Shown here piece after piece: positions 8,688-18,109 of a stretch of 64,000 nt of DNA (position 1 is the stretch's first letter; each line of letters starts with the position of its first letter). Source of the DNA: Chromatiaceae bacterium. Its GTDB lineage: Bacteria > Pseudomonadota > Gammaproteobacteria > Chromatiales > Chromatiaceae. Under the pieces are notes generated by a model. It had not been told where the DNA came from. It did no database searches and saw only the letters and a program-made list of their open reading frames with translations. The translations under genes and the position numbers were made by a program. The stretch is from contig REDK01000078.1 of NCBI GenBank assembly GCA_007693535.1, positions 1 to 64,000 on the forward strand. Reading direction: 5' to 3'.

Positions 8688-9605
8688 ATGACGCGCAAGA
8701 CCCAGCCTCTCCTCGTTCCGATCAGCCTCTCCGCGCTGACCTTCGCCATCGGGCTCGGCACCGGCAGCCTGCTGGCATCCCATCCGTCCGACGGGCCGGC
8801 CGGGGCCGCAACGGCCCCTGACCCATCCCGCGATCCGCCCGCGACCGCGACACCGGCCGCGGGCACGGCGGCGCTGGTTGGCGCAGCGCAACCGACGGCG
8901 TCGTCCGCGACCGACCCGGCAACCACCGCCAACCCGGACCCCGAGTTACTTGCGCGGGTCGAGCATCTCAGTGAGGGCTGGGGCCGGATGGAGGCAGAAC
9001 TGGCGGAGTTGCGGGCCCGGCTGGCGGTGCTGGAACGCCGCCCGTCACCGGTGGAGACGGCTGCCAGCGAGGCCGAACGCCGGCGCGCCCTGCGCCCGCG
9101 CACGCCGGAGCAGCAGCGCGACGCCCTGCTGCGCGCCGGGGTGCGCCTGCAGCAGGCCGAAGACATCCTCTGGCGGCGCTCCCAACTGGCGCTGGAGCGG
9201 CTGGAGCTACGCGACCAAGCCATCCGTGAAGGCTGGATCGGCAGCGAGCAGTTTCGCGAGGAGATGCGCCGGATCAGCGGCCAGCAGGTCTCCCTGCGCG
9301 ACGAACTCGACCCAAACATCTACGACCGCTACCTGTTCGAGACCGGTCAGGACAACCGGGTGCGCATCGACTCGGTCATCGCTGGCTCGCTGGGCGAGGA
9401 CATTGGTCTGATGCCCGGTGACCTGGTCGAGGCCTATAACGAACAGCCCATCTTCGATCCCGGCGAACTACGCACCGCCACCACGGTCGGCGAGCGGGGG
9501 GAACTGGTGCCGGTGCGCATTCGCCGCAACAACCAGCCGCTGGAACTCTGGCTGCCGCGTGGCCCGATCGGCATCCGGCTGGACACGGACCGTATCGCAC
9601 CCTGA
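8688..9605 (+). CDS. PDZ-domain protein, exported or membrane-anchored
   Basis: A 305-aa protein that starts with a hydrophobic anchor or signal segment (LLVPISLSALTFAIGLGTGSLLA), then a long Ala/Pro/Thr-rich linker (residues 30-85), a charged coiled-coil-like region (about 90-190, rich in ERR, EQQ and LERLEL) and a C-terminal PDZ domain. The PDZ part reads SVIAGSLGEDIGLMPGDLVEAYNEQPI, a typical carboxylate-loop and ligand groove, and ends near LPRGPIGIRLD. There is no protease domain, so it is likely a periplasmic adaptor or scaffold. ATG 8688 is chosen as the first start that gives the hydrophobic N-terminus. Confidence 0.75.
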   Translation: MTRKTQPLLVPISLSALTFAIGLGTGSLLASHPSDGPAGAATAPDPSRDPPATATPAAGTAALVGAAQPTASSATDPATTANPDPELLARVEHLSEGWGRMEAELAELRARLAVLERRPSPVETAASEAERRRALRPRTPEQQRDALLRAGVRLQQAEDILWRRSQLALERLELRDQAIREGWIGSEQFREEMRRISGQQVSLRDELDPNIYDRYLFETGQDNRVRIDSVIAGSLGEDIGLMPGDLVEAYNEQPIFDPGELRTATTVGERGELVPVRIRRNNQPLELWLPRGPIGIRLDTDRIAP

Positions 9606-9658
9606 TGTTCCCGTTGCTTCCATCCCCGCAGCTCGCTGTGCTGCGGGACAGGACTGGC

Positions 9659-11101
9659 TCAATCCCACTGCAGGGCGCCGCCAGTCTGATACTCGGTGAC
9701 GCGGGTCTCGAAGAAGTTCTTCTCCTTCTTGAGGTCGAGCACCTCCGACATCCAGGGGAAGGGATTGACAGCGCCCGGGTATTGCTCCGGCAGGCCGATC
9801 TGGGCACAGCGGCGGTTGGCGATGAACTGCAGATACTCGGCGAACATCGGCGCATTCAGGCCCAGGACACCGCGCGGCATGGTGTCCTCCGCATAAGCGG
9901 TCTCCAGCGCCACCGCCTCGCGGATCATCGCGACGAGTTCCTGCCGGAACGCCGTGGTCCACAGGTGCGGATTCTCGATCTTGATCTGATTGATGACGTC
10001 GATGCCAAAGTTCATGTGCATCGACTCGTCGCGCAGGATGTACTGGAACTGCTCGGCGGTGCCGGTCATCTTGTTGCGCCGCCCCATGCTGAGCACCTGC
10101 ACGAAGCCAACGTAGAAGAAGATGCCCTCGAAGACGAGATAAAAGGCGATCAGCTCGCGCAGCAGTTTTTGATCGTTCTTAGGGGTGCCGGTGTGAAAAT
10201 GGGGATCGGCCAGATACTGGGTGAATGGCAGCGCCCATTCGGCCTTGCGCGCCACTGCCGGGACCTCTCGATACATGTTGAAGATCTCGCCCTCGTCCAG
10301 CCCCAGGCTTTCCACGACATACTGGTAGGCATGGGTGTGCAGGGCCTCCTCGAAGGCCTGCCGCAGCAGATACTGCCGACACTCGGGGTTGCTGATGTGG
10401 CGATAGACCGCGAGCACCAGGTTATTGGCTACTAGTGAATCGGCAGTGGCAAAGAACCCAAGGTTGCGCTTGATGATGGTGCGCTCGTCCTCGGTCAGGC
10501 CCTGAGGATCTTTCCATAACGCGATGTCCGCGTTCATGTTGACCTCCTGGGGCATCCAGTGATTGGCGCAGGCGTCGAGGTATTTCTGCCAGGCCCAGTC
10601 GTATTTGAACGGCACCAGTTGGTTGAGGTCGGCACGGCAGTTGATGATGCGCTTGTCGTCCACCCGCACGCGCCCGGCCCCCATCTCCAGGGTTTCCAGC
10701 CCAGTGGCGCCGCCAGCGCCGCCGGCAGTTGCCGCCGGCGCGCTCGCGCGCAGGGTCGGTTCGGCATCGAGATCATCGAGCAGGGCCGGCTGAACCGGCA
10801 GCGGGTTGGGGTTCACCACCGGCGCCGCCCCGGCGGTGGCCATCAGCGCGGCATTGGCAACCAGCCCCTGCCCGGGGCGGGGCGCGCCCGCGGCACTCAT
10901 CGGGCCGCGCGCAGAAGCAGTCGCGCCGGCCGGAGCACCCTGCGTGCATGGTGCCGACGCCGGATCCGCTGTGGCGGTGCGCTGCGCGGGTGCTGCCAGG
11001 ATCGAATCCGAGTCCAGACCCGCAGCGGCATCCGGGCCCGGCGCGGGGATCACGGCCGAACGCGGGCGGGCGGCAGCAAGGGGGTCATCCCAGTTCAGCA
11101 T
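9659..11101 (-). CDS. nrdB: Ribonucleoside-diphosphate reductase subunit beta
   Basis: The radical-harbouring R2 subunit of aerobic class I ribonucleotide reductase, 480 aa. Diiron ligands and the radical site are recognisable: the aspartate in FFATADSLV, the [12 protein letters not shown] helix (Glu, His and a tyrosine at the radical position, not the phenylalanine of class Ic), and the second helix pair [13 protein letters not shown] / [11 protein letters not shown]. The C-terminus ([18 protein letters not shown]) holds the R1-binding tail. The first about 130 residues are an Ala/Pro-rich extension with no ATP-cone motif, longer than in E. coli NrdB. ATG 11101 is preceded by GGAGA. nrdA lies 2.2 kb away on the same strand, separated by a convergent ferredoxin and two other genes, so nrdB has its own promoter region. 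Confidence 0.95.
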
Positions 11102-11112
11102 CTCGTCTCTCC

Positions 11113-11148
11113 GGTGTTGTGGTTTCCGCGGGTGTTGTGGTTGCCGCG
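11113..11148. repeat. 18-bp tandem duplication in the nrdB leader
   Basis: GGTGTTGTGGTTTCCGCG (11113-11130) is followed directly by a copy with one mismatch (11131-11148). It lies 12 bp upstream of the nrdB start, covering the region before its ribosome-binding site. The duplication may alter leader structure or promoter spacing. The shared ACCACAACA core on the minus strand resembles half of an NrdR box but is not palindromic. Confidence 0.7.
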
Positions 11149-11242
11149 GGTCATAGCGGTTCGGCAGGCACTGCGGGCTACAATGCGGACCCTTGGCCGT
11201 TGCGCCCCGCCCGTTCAGTACGCATCTCAGAACGCATCGCTT

Positions 11243-11509
11243 ATGATCAAGAAACTCGACGTCGACCAACCCTCCTGCATCGGCTGCGGCACCTGCTGGG
11301 TGTCTAATCCGACGCTGTTTCGGGAGGATCGCCCGAACGGTGAACTGAAGGCCGCGGCCACCGGGCAGATCATCGATGACGCTGCCCGTCTGCGACTGAT
11401 TGCCGAGGGTTGTCCGACCCTGTCGATCTACCTGATCGACGAGGCCGAGCAGATCATCTATCCCACTGCCGAGCAGCGCGCCGCCCGCGATCAGGCCGCC
11501 GAATGGTGA
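11243..11509 (+). CDS. 4Fe-4S single-cluster ferredoxin
   Basis: An 88-aa protein with CIGCGTC near the N-terminus (first three cluster ligands) and a fourth cysteine in [10 protein letters not shown] about 45 residues later. This is the arrangement of single 4Fe-4S (Thermotoga-type) ferredoxins. ATG 11243 is the first start that keeps the [17 protein letters not shown]-terminus; its ribosome-binding site is weak. The gene diverges from nrdB with 141 bp between starts. E. coli pairs nrdB with the 2Fe-2S ferredoxin YfaE, which maintains the NrdB cofactor; this protein is a candidate analogue, but that role is inferred only from position. Confidence 0.85.
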
Positions 11510-11605
11510 GTCGATCCGGGTCGTCAGGGCTCATCGCGGCCTGGCTGCTCCATCCTGATTGACCCTGGCGGCCTGCTCAGCACCGTCGGCGGCAGGCTGG
11601 CCGGT

Positions 11606-12703
11606 TCAGGGCAGCACGAATTCTTCTGGATCAGCCGCTGTCGGTTGGGTCTGCGCTGCCTCCCCGGGTCCAGTCTTCCCACGGGTCTCCCCGCGGGCGC
11701 CGCGGACATTCCCCGGGGCATCCGCGGGCGGATGCTCCCGATCGTCTCGAACATGCGGTGGCGGAGGTGCATCAGGTGCTGTCGTCGACCCTACGGGCTC
11801 CGCCCCATTCGTCGCTGCTGATCCGGCTGCTGGTTCTCGTTCTGGTTCCGGTTCTGGTCGGGGACCGGGCGCAGCGACGGCTGCCGGCTCCGGTTGCGGC
11901 TCCTGTTCCGGTTCGGAATCCGGCACGGGTTCCTGCGGCGGAAACAGTTCCGGGTTCAGGATCTCGGCCAATTGTGCATAAGGGATCAGCACCTGATGAA
12001 AGCCGATGGCGAAGGGGCCGATCTGATATTGCTCGAACGTGACCTGCAGCCCTTCGGCAAGTGGCAGTAGTACCCGATAGTTGTCTGCCACCGGCGCGGT
12101 CCCTTCGCGCAGCCACGCGTCGTCTTCGGAGAAGGCGACGCGCCCGGTCAGGTCGGAGAAACACGCCTCCGCCAGGGCCGTCACCCAATCTGCGTCCGCT
12201 CGAAACAGCTGGGCCGGCGGCACGCGTTCTCCAGTGGCTTTCGAAAACACCAGTGGAACATGGGCGGTCCCGCCGTGGGCACCGCCGCTGTAGTGATAAA
12301 AGGATAGCCCGACCGACCAGAATCGCTCGCTGGTATAAACCGGATCGTATTGGATCTGCAGTTGCCAGGGCGCCCCCTCGTGATCTCCCTCGGAGGTGAC
12401 GAACTCTCGATAGTCGCGCCGAAATCCGCCCAAGATATCGTCGATATGAGCAGCGATCGCCGCATTGGCCTCCTGTACCGCTGGTTCATTGCCCGGCAAC
12501 CGCGGGTAGACCACGTCGATCTTGAGCGTCGGACGGGTCTCACTCATCCGCACTTCACGCCCATCCTTACTGATTACCTGAGTCAATCCGGCACGCGCAT
12601 CCGTGACCAGCGCCGCGTCCGGAATCTCGGCGATCACTGGTAGCGCGATGGTCAGCAGGACCAGCATCAGCGCGGTTGTTAACGGGTGCGATTGCATCGG
12701 CAT
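11606..12703 (-). CDS. DUF3298/DUF4163 (RsiV-like) secreted protein
   Basis: A 365-aa protein with a signal peptide (TALMLVLLTIALPVIA, cleavage near residue 26). Residues about 50-150 resemble DUF4163 and residues about 150-255 the DUF3298 domain, with SFYHYSGGAHGGTAHVPL and the closing GPFAIGFHQVLIPYAQL. These domains occur in RsiV-type anti-sigma factors and in PdaC-like peptidoglycan enzymes, where they can bind lysozyme or sugars; no catalytic domain is visible here. The last about 100 residues are a Pro/Glu/Ala-rich disordered tail (EPEQEPQPEPA). It lies 63 bp downstream of the PsiE-like gene and may end the nrdA transcript. Confidence 0.8.
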   Translation of the reverse strand: MPMQSHPLTTALMLVLLTIALPVIAEIPDAALVTDARAGLTQVISKDGREVRMSETRPTLKIDVVYPRLPGNEPAVQEANAAIAAHIDDILGGFRRDYREFVTSEGDHEGAPWQLQIQYDPVYTSERFWSVGLSFYHYSGGAHGGTAHVPLVFSKATGERVPPAQLFRADADWVTALAEACFSDLTGRVAFSEDDAWLREGTAPVADNYRVLLPLAEGLQVTFEQYQIGPFAIGFHQVLIPYAQLAEILNPELFPPQEPVPDSEPEQEPQPEPAAVAAPGPRPEPEPEREPAAGSAATNGAEPVGSTTAPDAPPPPHVRDDREHPPADAPGNVRGARGETRGKTGPGEAAQTQPTAADPEEFVLP

Positions 12704-12766
12704 AGACCTTTATTACTGGCTTAGATCGATCGGGCTTAGGCCGGGATGACAGCGATACCGTTAGAC

Positions 12767-13357
12767 TCAGGACAAGTCGCGGTCGCTGCGGCTGGCATGG
12801 TCGCGCGGTGATGCCCGCCGCGGCACCGCGCCACGTGCGCGTGATGCGGGCGGGGCATCCGGCGGGTTGTGCATGTCAATGGCTCCACGCTGGGCCGGCC
12901 CGGTGCGCAGATCAGCCATCGCGACCAGCCAGTAGGCGAGCCCCAGCCCCAGCAACAACGCACCCATGCCGATCAGTTCACCTTGGGCGTAGTCGTCCAT
13001 CACGATGATCTTGCGCGCCACCGCCATCATGGCAGTGGCCAGCACCAGCTTCAGCGGGAAGACGTCGGTGCGGATATAGAGGGTGATATTGGCGAAGATC
13101 TCGTAGGCGATCAGCACCGCGAGGAAGGCGCCGAAGGTCTGGACGATGTTTGGGATGATGAACCATGGTTCCGATACCAGGTGCTTGTACACCGTCATGA
13201 CGACGCTGGCGACCCCCTCAAGGATTACCACAACCATGGTGATGGCCAGCGCATAGGCAGCCATCCGCAGGATCCAGTGCAGCAGCCGTAGGAGCCGGTC
13301 CGGCCCCCGCATCGGCAATTCTTCATGGCCCATATCGGAACTCACTACCACCCCCAC
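12767..13357 (-). CDS. PsiE-family (phosphate-starvation-inducible) membrane protein
   Basis: About 196 aa with four hydrophobic segments. MAAYALAITMVVVILEGVASVV, the AFLAVLIAYEIFANITLYI block and ATAMMAVARKIIVMD are the conserved core of the PsiE family, whose function is unknown. The C-terminal 40 residues are basic and variable. The start is uncertain: GTG 13357 lies three bases after the nrdA stop, and ATG 13333 (MGHEELPMRG) is also plausible. Either way translation is probably coupled to nrdA, an unusual association. Confidence 0.85.
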   Translation of the reverse strand: MGVVVSSDMGHEELPMRGPDRLLRLLHWILRMAAYALAITMVVVILEGVASVVMTVYKHLVSEPWFIIPNIVQTFGAFLAVLIAYEIFANITLYIRTDVFPLKLVLATAMMAVARKIIVMDDYAQGELIGMGALLLGLGLAYWLVAMADLRTGPAQRGAIDMHNPPDAPPASRARGAVPRRASPRDHASRSDRDLS

Positions 13358-13360
13358 CCG

Positions 13361-16321
13361 CTACTGGCAACTCTCGCAGCCGGGATCTAGCAGGGAGCAG
13401 GCCGCCGCCGGCTCGGCAGTCTGCAGGGCGTCACCGTTGGTACGGCCCCGTCCACCGCCATAATCGCCCCCCACCGCAGCGAGCCGGTTGGCCCGGCTGG
13501 CATCGGCCATGGTGGACTTCTCGACGTGGGTCGCCCCTTGGGAGCGCAGATAGTAACTCGTCTTCAGCCCCCGCACCCAGGCCAACTTGTAAAGGTTGTC
13601 GAGCTTGCGGCCGTTGGGTTCGCGCAGATAGAGGTTGAGGCTCTGTGCCTGATCCAGCCATTTCTGCCGGCGGCTGCCGGCCTCCACCAGCCAGCGCGGA
13701 TCGATCTCGAAGGCAGTGGCATACAGGGCTTTGAGTTCGTCGGGGATGCGGTCGATCTGCTGCACCGAGCCGTCGTAGTACTTGAGATCGTTGACCATCA
13801 CTGTGTCCCACAGCCCCTGCTCCTTGAGGTCGGCCACAAGATAGGGATTGACCACCGTGAACTCTCCGGAGAGGTTGGATTTCACGAACAGGTTCTGATA
13901 GGTCGGCTCGATGGACTGACCGACGCCGACGATATTGCTGATGGTGGCAGTGGGCGCAATCGCCATGCAGTTGCTATTGCGCATGCCGACGGTCTGTACT
14001 CGCTCGCGTAGTCCCTGCCAGTCGAGGGTAGTACTAGTGTCCATCTGCAAATATCCATCGCGACCAGCAGCCAGCAGGGCAATGCTGTCGATCGGCAGGA
14101 TGCCGCGGCTCCACAGGCTGCCGTCGAAGCTGGGATAGCGCCCGCGCTCCTCGGCCAACTCGCTGCTGGTCTGGATCGTATAGTAGCTCAGCACCTCCAT
14201 GCTGTGATCGGCGAAGGCCACCGCGTCCTGACTGGCATAGGGCAGGCGCAACTGGTAAAGGGCATCCTGAAAGCCCATGATCCCGAGTCCGACCGGGCGG
14301 TGCCGTAGGTTCGACTTGCGTGCTTGGGGAACATTGTAGAAGTTGTAGTCGATGACATTGTCGAGCATGCGCATCGCGGTGCGCACGGTCCGCTGCAACT
14401 TGGCGGTATCCAGCCCGCGATCGCCAACATGATTGGCAAGATTGACCGATCCCAGATTACAGACCGCGATCTCTTGGTCATTGGTATGTAGGGTGATCTC
14501 GGTGCACAGGTTGCTACTATGTACGACACCGACGTGCTGATTGGTATAGCGCAGGTTGCAAGGGTCCTTGAAGGTGATCCAAGGGTGGCCGGTCTCGAAT
14601 AGCATCGCCAGCATGCGCCGCCACAGATCGACCGCCTTGACCTGCTTGCTCACCTGTAATTCACCACGCGCCGCGCGTGCCTCATAGGCGACATAGGCCT
14701 GCTCGAAGGCCTGTCCAGTCAAATCGTGCAGGTCCGGGGTCTCGTCCGGGGAGAACAGGGTCCAGTCGCCTTCCTCGGCCACCCGCTTCATGAACAGGTC
14801 CGGCACCCAGTTGGCGGTGTTCATATCGTGGGTGCGGCGGCGATCATCACCGGTGTTCTTGCGTAGATCGAGGAATTCCTCAATATCGATGTGCCAGGTC
14901 TCGAGATAGGCACACACTGCGCCACGCCGCTTGCCCCCCTGGTTGACCGCCACCGCGGTGTCGTTGGCGACCTTCAGGAACGGCACCACGCCCTGGCTGC
15001 GGCCGTTGGTGCCCTTGATATGAGCACCCATGCCGCGCACCCGGGTCCAGTCGTTGCCGAGGCCGCCGGCAAACTTGCTGAGCAGGGCGTTGTCCTTGAC
15101 CGCGCTGTAGATTCCATCGAGATCGTCCGGCACCGTGGTCAGATAGCAGGAACTCAGTTGCGGACGCAGGGTGCCGGAATTGAACAGGGTCGGCGTGCTG
15201 CTCATAAAATCGAACGACGAGAGCAGCTCGTAGAATTCGATGGCCCGCTCCTCGCGGTCGATCTCGTTGATCGCCAGGCCCATCGCCACACGCATGAAGA
15301 AGGCCTGCGGCAGTTCCAACCGTATACCTGCGGCAGTATGGATGAAATAGCGGTCGTAGAGGGTCTGCAAACCGAGATAGGTGAATTGCAGGTCACGCTC
15401 AGCGTGCAGGGCCGCGCCCAGGCGGGCCAGATCGAAGCGGCTGAGTTGCGGATCGAGCAACTCCAGATCGACCCCGGTACGGACATAGGCAGCGAAGTAA
15501 TCGGCATAGCGCTCGACCAGGTCGGCCTGGGTCTCGACCCCGCTTGCCATGCCCAGCAATCCCAACGCCTCGCGCCGCAACAGGTCCAACAACAATCGCG
15601 CGGCGGCCTGGCTATAAGCAGGCTCGCGCTCGACCAGGGCGCGCGCTGCCATGACCAGTGCCTGGCCAACATCGGCCTCGTCGATCCCGTCGAAGAGGTT
15701 GCGCAGCGCATCGGCCAGGATGGCATCCGCGTCTACCCCCGTCAGGCCGCGCGCGGCCTCGTCCACCAGGCGGCGTAGGCGTTCGGTATCCAGCGGCCGG
15801 CTGCTTCCATCGGTCAGCCGCACTGTCAAAGGCTGCGCGAGTTGGGTTGGGTCGGCCTCGGCAGCTGCCGCCGCTCGCGCCGCGCGCTCGCGGGTGCGTG
15901 CCTCACGATATAGCACATAGTCGCGCGCAACCCGGTGTTCACCGGCACGCATCAGGGCCAGTTCCACTTGGTCCTGAATGTCCTCGATATGGACGGTACC
16001 CCCGCCCGGCAGCCGCCGGGTCAGGGCCGCGACCACCTGATCGGCGAGTTCTTCGACGCGCTCATGGACACGGCTGGAGGCCGCTGCCTGGCCCCCCTCG
16101 ACGGCCAGGAACGCCTTGGTCATCGCCACTTTGATCTTATTCGGATCGAAATGGGTCACCTTGCCGTTGCGGCGGATCACCTGCACCCGCCCCGGCTGCC
16201 GAGCGGCGATCTCGGGGCTGGGGGTGGTTGCCTCGGCCGCCGTTGGCGCCGGCGACGGCGTGGCGATGGCATCCTGAGGGTTTGCAAACGAGGCGTCGGC
16301 GCGGGCGTTGGCAGCGGCCAT
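13361..16321 (-). CDS. nrdA: Ribonucleoside-diphosphate reductase subunit alpha
   Basis: The catalytic R1 subunit (986 aa), which reduces ribonucleoside diphosphates to deoxyribonucleotides with NrdB. Two ATP-cone regions precede the barrel: VIRRNGKVTHFDPNKIKVAM (about residues 50-140) and a more divergent one around RLTDGSSRPLDTERLRRLV. Catalytic-site signatures include LSSCYL, NLCTEITLHTNDQEIAVCNLGSVNLA (the Asn, Cys and Glu of the active site plus the partner Cys) and NCMAIAPTATISNI. The C-terminus DPGCESCQ carries the redox-active cysteine pair that passes electrons from thioredoxin. ATG 16321 has GGAG at the right spacing; residues upstream in the track ORF overlap the promoter. Doubled ATP-cones suggest dATP feedback with altered oligomerisation. 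Two NrdR boxes lie upstream. Confidence 0.96.
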   Translation of the reverse strand: MAAANARADASFANPQDAIATPSPAPTAAEATTPSPEIAARQPGRVQVIRRNGKVTHFDPNKIKVAMTKAFLAVEGGQAAASSRVHERVEELADQVVAALTRRLPGGGTVHIEDIQDQVELALMRAGEHRVARDYVLYREARTRERAARAAAAAEADPTQLAQPLTVRLTDGSSRPLDTERLRRLVDEAARGLTGVDADAILADALRNLFDGIDEADVGQALVMAARALVEREPAYSQAAARLLLDLLRREALGLLGMASGVETQADLVERYADYFAAYVRTGVDLELLDPQLSRFDLARLGAALHAERDLQFTYLGLQTLYDRYFIHTAAGIRLELPQAFFMRVAMGLAINEIDREERAIEFYELLSSFDFMSSTPTLFNSGTLRPQLSSCYLTTVPDDLDGIYSAVKDNALLSKFAGGLGNDWTRVRGMGAHIKGTNGRSQGVVPFLKVANDTAVAVNQGGKRRGAVCAYLETWHIDIEEFLDLRKNTGDDRRRTHDMNTANWVPDLFMKRVAEEGDWTLFSPDETPDLHDLTGQAFEQAYVAYEARAARGELQVSKQVKAVDLWRRMLAMLFETGHPWITFKDPCNLRYTNQHVGVVHSSNLCTEITLHTNDQEIAVCNLGSVNLANHVGDRGLDTAKLQRTVRTAMRMLDNVIDYNFYNVPQARKSNLRHRPVGLGIMGFQDALYQLRLPYASQDAVAFADHSMEVLSYYTIQTSSELAEERGRYPSFDGSLWSRGILPIDSIALLAAGRDGYLQMDTSTTLDWQGLRERVQTVGMRNSNCMAIAPTATISNIVGVGQSIEPTYQNLFVKSNLSGEFTVVNPYLVADLKEQGLWDTVMVNDLKYYDGSVQQIDRIPDELKALYATAFEIDPRWLVEAGSRRQKWLDQAQSLNLYLREPNGRKLDNLYKLAWVRGLKTSYYLRSQGATHVEKSTMADASRANRLAAVGGDYGGGRGRTNGDALQTAEPAAACSLLDPGCESCQ

Positions 16322-16403
16322 AGGAGACTCCGGGGGTGAGGATCGAGGCCTACCGGCAAGGGCCGGGCAGCGGCCGATGTAGTGGGCGAGTCCGCCCTTG
16401 AGG

Positions 16404-16451
16404 ACACAATATATACGCCATTCAATCGGAGTCAACCACAACATATGGTTT
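16404..16451 (-). promoter_or_regulatory. Paired NrdR boxes upstream of nrdA
   Basis: Box 1, ACACAATATATACGCC (16404-16419), and box 2, CCACAACATATGGTTT (16436-16451), each match about 12 of 16 positions of the published NrdR consensus aCaCwAtATaTwGtgt. Their starts are exactly 32 bp apart, the three-helical-turn spacing typical of NrdR box pairs. They overlap the nrdA promoter -10 and the region just upstream of its -35, as expected for repression when dATP is plentiful. nrdR itself is not in the window. Confidence 0.75.
16408..16435 (-). promoter_or_regulatory. Sigma-70 promoter of nrdA
   Basis: Read on the minus strand: TTGACT (16435-16430), a 16-bp spacer, then TATATT (16413-16408). The start of transcription would fall near 16401, giving an 80-base leader before ATG 16321. 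The -10 lies inside NrdR box 1. This is a sequence-based prediction. Confidence 0.6.
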
Positions 16452-16679
16452 CCAGTCCCTGTCGCGCTCCCGATCGCGTTAGGCCTTCCCAAGGGCCGGA
16501 ATCCCTGTCCGCACCGCGTCATCGGTCAGATGGCCAGCCGAACAGGACCGGCCTCGTCGGTCAGGATCATCACTGCGGTGCAACCCGGGCAGCTATACTC
16601 TGCGCCTGATCGCGGTCAGCGCGTCCCGACCGGCGACGCACCCACCATCGCTGCCTTGGCGGGGCGGGCGCGCGGCCTT
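16452..16679. other. Intergenic, no gene recognised
   Basis: Upstream of the NrdR boxes and before repeat copy C. No ORF with a recognisable family. Confidence 0.4.
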
Positions 16680-16836
16680 GGGCGATTTTCGTCAACTTTC
16701 ATGCCATCCGACTGATCTTGATGCCCGCCTTGGCGTCGCACTGGCGGTCAGCGAGTTTGCGATGCGTCCGCCAGTCCGCCTTGAAGGCGAACGTCAATCC
16801 TGCCTGATCTGGCATGAAAATTTCCGGCGATCGCCT
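16680..16836 (-). repeat. Dispersed 157-bp intergenic repeat, copy C
   Basis: In minus orientation this copy aligns along its full length with copies at 31823 and 43000, sharing blocks such as GCCAGAT, TTGACGTTCGCCTTCAAGG, CTGACCGCCAGTGCGACGCC and GGCGGGCATCAAGA. The ends are imperfect inverted repeats (AGGCGAT...GAAA and GGGCGATTTTCGTC). It has no real ORF. It lies between nrdA and the cytochrome gene. Confidence 0.8.
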
Positions 16837-16922
16837 TCACGTTGTCCCTGTCAAACCGCAGGGCAGCCATTTCGAGACAGTGCCGGCGCTGGCGACGACC
16901 AGGCCGGAAACACTGCTAATGA

Positions 16923-16946
16923 CCCGGGCCGGCAAGCCGGCCCGGG
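16923..16946. promoter_or_regulatory. Perfect 11-bp inverted repeat before the cytochrome c gene
   Basis: CCCGGGCCGGC AA GCCGGCCCGGG, 20 bases upstream of the start codon of the cytochrome gene and just before its ribosome-binding site. It could be an RNA hairpin in the 5' leader or a protein-binding palindrome. No U-tract follows, so it is not a standard terminator. Confidence 0.6.
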
Positions 16947-16966
16947 CACTTCGTCTGGAGGAGACC

Positions 16967-17698
16967 ATGTATCAGATCACTCCTGCCTGCATCCTGGCGG
17001 CGGGCCTCTTGGTCGCGCCGCCGCTGTTGGCGCAGACCCCGGCCGAGGTGGCCGATCGCGAGTATGCGGACGTCATGACCCGCAGCCCCAACCTGGAAAA
17101 CGGCCGCCAGGTCTATCTGACCTGCGCGGTCTGCCATCTGCCCGAGGGTTGGGGTACCGCCGACGGGACCTATCCGCAGATCGCCGGTCAGTTGCGCACG
17201 GTGATCATCAAGCAATTGGCCGATTTCCGCGCTGGCAACCGCATCAACCCACTGATGTATCCTTTCTCGGTGCCGCAGGTGCTCGGCAACGCTCAGGATA
17301 TCGCCGATGTGGCCGCCTACGTGGCGCAACTGCCGATGACGCCTCACAACGGCCTGGGACCGGGCACCGACCTGGAGCGCGGCGCGGCCCTGTATCGCGA
17401 CAACTGTGCCGACTGCCATGGCGCGCAGGGCGAAGGGGACGACGAAGAGCACATCCCCGCGATCGCCGCACAGCATTATCTGCATCTGATGCGCCAGTTC
17501 GACAGCATCCGCAGCGGCGCGCGCACCAATGCTGACCCGGAGATGGTCGAGCAGATTCAAGGCTTTACCCCGGCAGAGCAGGCGGCGGTGCTCGACTACA
17601 CCGCACGCCTGCGCCCGCCGCCGGAGCGGCTGGCTGCCGACGGCTGGCGCAATCCGGATTTTCCGGACTTCGTCCGCGAGCGGCCGGCGCAGCCGTAG
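16967..17698 (+). CDS. Di-haem cytochrome c (class I, c4-like)
   Basis: A 243-aa periplasmic electron carrier. A signal peptide (ITPACILAAGLLVAPPLLA) is followed by two class I cytochrome c domains with haem-attachment sites CAVCH (near residue 48) and CADCH (near residue 148). Axial methionines are probably supplied by the INPLMYPFS region and a Met in the second half. The two-domain plan fits the cytochrome c4 type that donates to terminal oxidases or takes electrons from the bc1 complex. ATG 16967 follows a good GGAGGAG site; the track ORF starts far upstream in repeat C. It appears monocistronic. Confidence 0.9.
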   Translation: MYQITPACILAAGLLVAPPLLAQTPAEVADREYADVMTRSPNLENGRQVYLTCAVCHLPEGWGTADGTYPQIAGQLRTVIIKQLADFRAGNRINPLMYPFSVPQVLGNAQDIADVAAYVAQLPMTPHNGLGPGTDLERGAALYRDNCADCHGAQGEGDDEEHIPAIAAQHYLHLMRQFDSIRSGARTNADPEMVEQIQGFTPAEQAAVLDYTARLRPPPERLAADGWRNPDFPDFVRERPAQP

Positions 17699-18109
17699 GT
17701 GCCCCACTGTCAGTCAACGCCGAGGCACCCAGCCCGATCGCCCGGCTGCTGCGCGCAAGCTGATTTAGCGTCGAGGAAACGCCCGGACAGTGCTGATCGC
17801 GTTGAATAAAGCGACGCTTCTTGCCTTGTTTTTCGAGGCCTGGCTGCCTATGCTGAAGGTGCCGACGGTCGGGGGCTGTCGGTGCGGCGTGCGCCACCTT
17901 ATGAAGAGCCCCAATGTAAGAGTCCCAAGGGGGACGCCGAGCCTGTCGACACGGCCTTGACGGGTGCCATCCGGGTGCGATCAAAACAGGTGGTTACGCC
18001 GTTACGCTTTGACCTCAGGGTTGTCGGCGCCATCAGCGCGTCGCGGCGCCAGTCGCTAGCGTGCTGGCTGGGTTGGCGTGCAACCCTTTTTGACGTTTGG
18101 GGGATCACA
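17699..18109. other. Intergenic, no gene recognised
   Basis: About 410 bp with overlapping ORFs that lack motifs. It must contain the promoter of the following hydrolase gene, but no clear -35/-10 is visible. Confidence 0.4.

Follow-up and report, generated by a model that had tools for sequence, protein, structure and literature searches.

The region 16404 to 16451 of the window, i.e. the whole stretch of 64,000 nucleotides that was analysed, very probably is an NrdR operator of nrdA, which would mediate dATP-dependent repression of this gene. The sites, the geometry of the promoter, the repressor gene and the conservation were observed directly. In view of the matrix rank of the sites, the presence of nrdR and the conserved position and spacing of the pair, the NrdR reading is supported and the case is an ordinary one: the known NrdR regulon gains a predicted member, which is unusual only in the loss of one key base pair.

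Boxes and promoter of nrdA

The minus-strand promoter and the boxes are located about 80 bp 5' of nrdA:

13361..16321, minus strand: nrdA, class I ribonucleotide reductase alpha subunit, 986 aa (PF02867, PF00317, PF03477; NF005544 1720 bits)
16404..16419, minus strand: downstream NrdR box, ACACAATATATACGCC on the plus strand and GGCGTATATATTGTGT on the minus strand, covering the -10
16408..16413, minus strand: -10 hexamer TATATT from the promoter scan, within the downstream box
16430..16435, minus strand: -35 hexamer TTGACT from the promoter scan
16436..16451, minus strand: upstream NrdR box, CCACAACATATGGTTT on the plus strand and AAACCATATGTTGTGG on the minus strand, abutting the -35

Both boxes are NrdR-box-like palindromes of 16 bp, each with 12 of 16 positions identical to ACACWATATATWGTGT. 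Their starts are 32 bp apart, and the resulting spacer of 16 bp agrees with the published criterion for NrdR box pairs, a spacer of 14-17 bp (or 24-27 bp); spacers of 14-17 bp were functional both in vitro and in reporter assays (PMC12051234). TTGACT-16-TATATT was the top match of four sigma-70-like hits in 9400-17200 (7.8 kb scanned). Thus our positions, box scores and hexamers reproduced what the earlier note had described, namely two 16-bp boxes with about 12 of 16 matches each at a distance of 32 bp and a promoter between and under them. The predicted operator coincides in part with the RNA polymerase site of nrdA, a ribonucleotide reductase gene: it abuts the -35, covers the -10 and has nrdA downstream. 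The start of nrdA is the ATG at 16321; the open reading frame extends further upstream to 16522, through the promoter.

The upstream box has kept both GC anchors (C4 and G13). In the downstream box the C4 of the left half is replaced by G, which leaves one of two anchors in this box and three of four in the pair. No Rfam element, e.g. a cobalamin riboswitch, was detected in 9000-18000. By eye, a cobalamin-riboswitch-like sequence was seen between the NrdR pair and nrdA in the related loci L047, L054 and L056, and perhaps in L052.

Comparison with chance and genome background

The nrdA pair scored 24 of 32 (8 mismatches) and was the sole independent pair with a score of at least 19 at a spacing of 30-33 bp in the 64-kb window; the remaining pairs listed for the window share one of the two nrdA boxes. 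The best pair score in 40 dinucleotide-Markov windows of 64 kb was 21, compared to 24 for the observed pair, and all 20,000 local shuffles stayed below 24. For an independent weight matrix, the training set consisted of 18 nrdA leaders that did not belong to the family-level relatives; this matrix was run against a background of 344 kb of the same genome (the window and 22 other stretches) out of 4.16 Mb. The nrdA pair ranked second with 27.3 bits, surpassed only by a pair at nrdD with 40.1 bits, and the next pair free of these boxes had 10.7 bits. Among single sites in the 344 kb, the upstream box alone had rank 2 with 16.4 bits and the downstream box alone rank 6 with 11.0 bits. A strict pattern search of the own genome, which tolerated up to 3 mismatches to a pair of consensus boxes, yielded zero matches because the real nrdA pair carries 8.

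NrdR and nrdD of the same genome

A single nrdR gene is encoded in the genome (locus L001; TIGR00244, 208 bits at a cut-off of 124.65). It is flanked by glyA-like and ribD-like genes in the order glyA-nrdR-ribD-like, named by eye from the translations. The product retains D15, R17, RRRR26-29 and R37, the residues of NrdR that make the specificity and backbone contacts to DNA (PMC9110341). The earlier note had named two refuting tests beforehand, a weight-matrix scan against genome background and a search for nrdR; given the rank of the pair and the presence of the gene, its prediction passed both.

The genome contains one gene for a class I alpha subunit, one for a beta subunit and one class III nrdD; nrdA was the only PF02867 gene found. 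The pair at nrdD, CCACAATATCTAGCGA-15-ACACAAGATATTGTGT (L145:1116-1162 on contig C48), has a 15-bp spacer and all four GC anchors, ends 19 bp 5' of the nrdD ATG and is stronger than the nrdA pair. Probably nrdDG is also controlled by the same NrdR.

Conservation of the pair and loss of an anchor

The relatives were selected solely on the similarity of their NrdA proteins, and 46 non-redundant leaders were used for the spacing count. In 36 of the 46 leaders a pair spaced by exactly 32 bp reached a score of 22 or higher, while unrelated spacings gave 0 to 8. Pairs at 30, 31 and 34 bp occurred in 22, 10 and 17 leaders, respectively; some leaders truly have the 31-bp spacing, and the pairs at 30 and 34 bp arise for the most part from the repeated AT core being read in a shifted register. 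Shuffled leaders had essentially no pairs and none at 32 bp. The order common to the family is a box, TTGAC and a box over TATATATTG, with TTGAC directly following the upstream box in most relatives. In most of the related nrdA leaders, the NrdR pair has an identical position relative to TTGAC.

C4 and G13 of the upstream box were present in 27/27 relatives. In the downstream box G13 was found in 26/27 and C4 in 11/27, with G at position 4 in 14/27 as in the window. The loss of C4 from the downstream box (absent in 16/27) thus recurs in Chromatiaceae-type relatives. A single origin of this loss was not supported, as a tree of 28 NrdA proteins needs at least 7 changes, which is little below the number with shuffled labels. 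Cryo-EM and mutation have shown the importance of the GC pairs at positions 4 and 13 of the box (PMC9110341); in S. coelicolor, inversion of one GC pair per box caused an approximately 60-fold loss of binding (PMC9110341).

Alternative readings

Since 16 of 27 relatives, like the window, lack the C4 anchor of the downstream 'box', the latter might mainly be a -10 element, i.e. TATATT and its flanks, and only the upstream box a true site. NrdR would then bind weakly or use another partner box, e.g. at 16372-16387. In E. coli a precedent exists with box 0 of nrdAB, which overlaps the -10 and lies outside the real site (PMC12176259), and a third weak match in the window, GGCCGATGTAGTGGGC, is located 32 bp further downstream at 16372-16387 with 8 of 16 positions and both anchors. 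Yet the downstream box is conserved in letters past the -10 hexamer, T14 in 20/27 and G15 in 18/27 besides the nearly invariant G13 (26/27), and in several relatives the palindrome at this place is complete, in some of them together with a -10 of different sequence (ACACATCCTATAGTAT). The third match scored -3.1 bits, is absent at that position in the relatives and has a chance frequency of 0.4% of positions; considering the negative matrix score and the lack of conservation, we rejected it as an E. coli-like true partner box and regard it as probably fortuitous. On balance we consider it unlikely that the upstream box is the only NrdR site. Another explanation would be that an AT-rich promoter resembles NrdR boxes by chance and that NrdR is not involved. 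The promoter is AT-rich within a GC-rich genome and so is the core of the consensus. However, this explanation is extremely improbable because the pair score was unmatched in simulated and shuffled sequence and because spacing and position are conserved across the relatives.

Either a downstream box with one anchor is sufficient beside a strong box, or the box over the -10 acts as a weak partner. Tentatively, the letters might indicate an asymmetric operator in Chromatiaceae, consisting of a complete palindrome ahead of the -35 plus a weak, one-anchor site tuned over the -10, although we hold this to be somewhat doubtful. If true, repression of nrdA would be incomplete or would need more dATP than that of nrdD with its four of four anchors. 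The recurrent loss of an anchor over the -10 offers a natural experiment on the extent to which an NrdR box has to be complete.

Genes behind nrdA and control of nrdB

The following genes are located downstream of nrdA:

12767..13357, minus strand: psiE-family gene (PF06146), beginning 4 bp past the nrdA stop
11606..12703, minus strand: PdaC/DUF3298-like gene (PF13739), a gene next to psiE near nrdB in same-genus genomes
11243..11509, plus strand: ferredoxin-like ORF, named from its cysteine-rich sequence, divergent from nrdB
9659..11101, minus strand: nrdB, class I ribonucleotide reductase beta subunit (PF00268; NF005550 694 bits)

The N-terminal ATP-cone region of NrdA comprises two PF03477 stretches. 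Intein-like splits of NrdA near residue 456 or 604, in single frames of about 1260-1385 aa, were noticed in relatives (G003, G005, G007, G028, G029, G032, G037, G055, G061, G062, G065 and G066); an intein is absent from the nrdA of the window.

The psiE and the PdaC-like gene probably share the transcript of nrdA. The earlier note had extended NrdR repression to genes coupled to nrdA. Of such genes, psiE and the PdaC-like gene lie directly behind nrdA, but the co-regulation of nrdB is uncertain because the opposite-strand ferredoxin-like gene separates it from nrdA, psiE and the PdaC-like gene. A scan of the nrdB leader (start codon 11101) showed no comparable NrdR pair, in agreement with the earlier note. 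In several same-genus genomes (L168-L170, L172-L174) a pdaC-like and/or a psiE-like gene lies directly 5' of nrdB in the same direction, and nrdB has no separate NrdR pair of its own there. Compared to these genomes, the order of psiE and the PdaC-like gene is swapped in the window and the plus-strand ferredoxin-like ORF stands before nrdB, an arrangement that may separate nrdB from NrdR control. The loci L033, L178 and L186 of three other relatives have a good NrdR pair of their own upstream of nrdB. A counterpart of the ferredoxin-like ORF in L033 has 48% identity. Because the nrdB leader lacks a pair and the ferredoxin-like ORF intervenes, direct NrdR control of nrdB in the window is not predicted from the sequence. 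Transcriptional read-through from nrdA into nrdB is possible.

DnaA boxes in related nrdA leaders

Of 81 non-redundant nrdA leaders, 49 carried an exact DnaA box, TTATNCACA, on the upstream side of the NrdR pair, always in one orientation (0 reversed); as these leaders are mutually related, the counts exceed the number of independent instances. The loci with a DnaA box include L003-L005, L013, L015, L020, L021, L023-L027, L029, L030 and L035, and further L038-L055, L063 and L066-L110. Measured from the upstream NrdR box, the positions were -24 to -27, -35 to -38, -45 to -49 and -57 to -60; the clusters thus follow an 11-bp register, and a second, weaker box was often 11-12 bp off. In a set of 42 leaders 27 had an exact hit versus about 0.1 hits expected in the set. 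The nrdA leader of the window had no match with fewer than 2 mismatches. DnaA is known to control nrdAB of E. coli via a double box of this kind (PMC8203912, PMC11317965); a description of a DnaA array combined with an NrdR pair was not found in a literature search of partial coverage. A DnaA array next to the NrdR boxes, as in many of the related nrdA promoters, would link the supply of the enzyme to the level of dATP and to replication initiation.

Discussion

For NrdR binding to the operator, its nucleotide dependence and the direction of the effect we infer from other species how the system may operate. At high levels of dATP, NrdR carrying dATP and ATP or ADP would form a tetramer, whose two pairs of zinc ribbons would occupy the two boxes three helical turns apart. 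The upstream box would serve as the strong anchor and the downstream box, with one of two GC anchors, as the weaker site. Binding would bend the DNA sharply and cover the edge of the -35 and the -10, and RNA polymerase would be blocked for nrdA, psiE and the PdaC-like gene. Upon a drop in dATP, NrdR would depart and the enzyme would be produced. The earlier note had proposed regulation by NrdR-(d)ATP. The part concerning NrdR agrees with the sites, the gene and the conservation; the nucleotide needs refinement because published work has established that NrdR requires dATP plus ATP or ADP to bind DNA. Our analysis assigns both nrdA and nrdD of the Chromatiaceae genome to the predicted NrdR regulon and provides a concrete, testable operator. 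A literature search of partial coverage found no paper on NrdR in Chromatiales.

The promoter logic resembles that of nrdA in P. aeruginosa, where one of two NrdR boxes 5' of the gene is located over the -10 and the other outside, and where a strain with the other box mutated and an nrdR mutant were alike in expression (PMC4409342). In contrast to the predicted operator of the window, function in P. aeruginosa was established by reporter fusions and an nrdR mutant; furthermore, nrdA and nrdB of the window are separated by other genes. The E. coli operons nrdAB, nrdHIEF and nrdDG share the 16-bp boxes, spacers of 15-16 bp and the overlap with the RNA polymerase site (PMC12176259), and nrdD of the Chromatiaceae genome also has a pair. 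In E. coli nrdAB a predicted pair including the box that overlaps the -10 was bound 40-50 times weaker than the pairs of the other operons, at more than 6 micromolar, and a different pair is the real site (PMC12176259). Thus the -10 box of E. coli nrdAB lies outside the bound pair, whereas that of the window is the downstream member of a conserved pair. With nrdRJ and nrdAB of S. coelicolor the operator has the three-turn spacing in common, and D15, R17 and RRRR are conserved in the NrdR of the window's genome (PMC9110341). Yet the GC anchors were necessary at S. coelicolor nrdRJ (PMC9110341), while the pair in the window has three of four.
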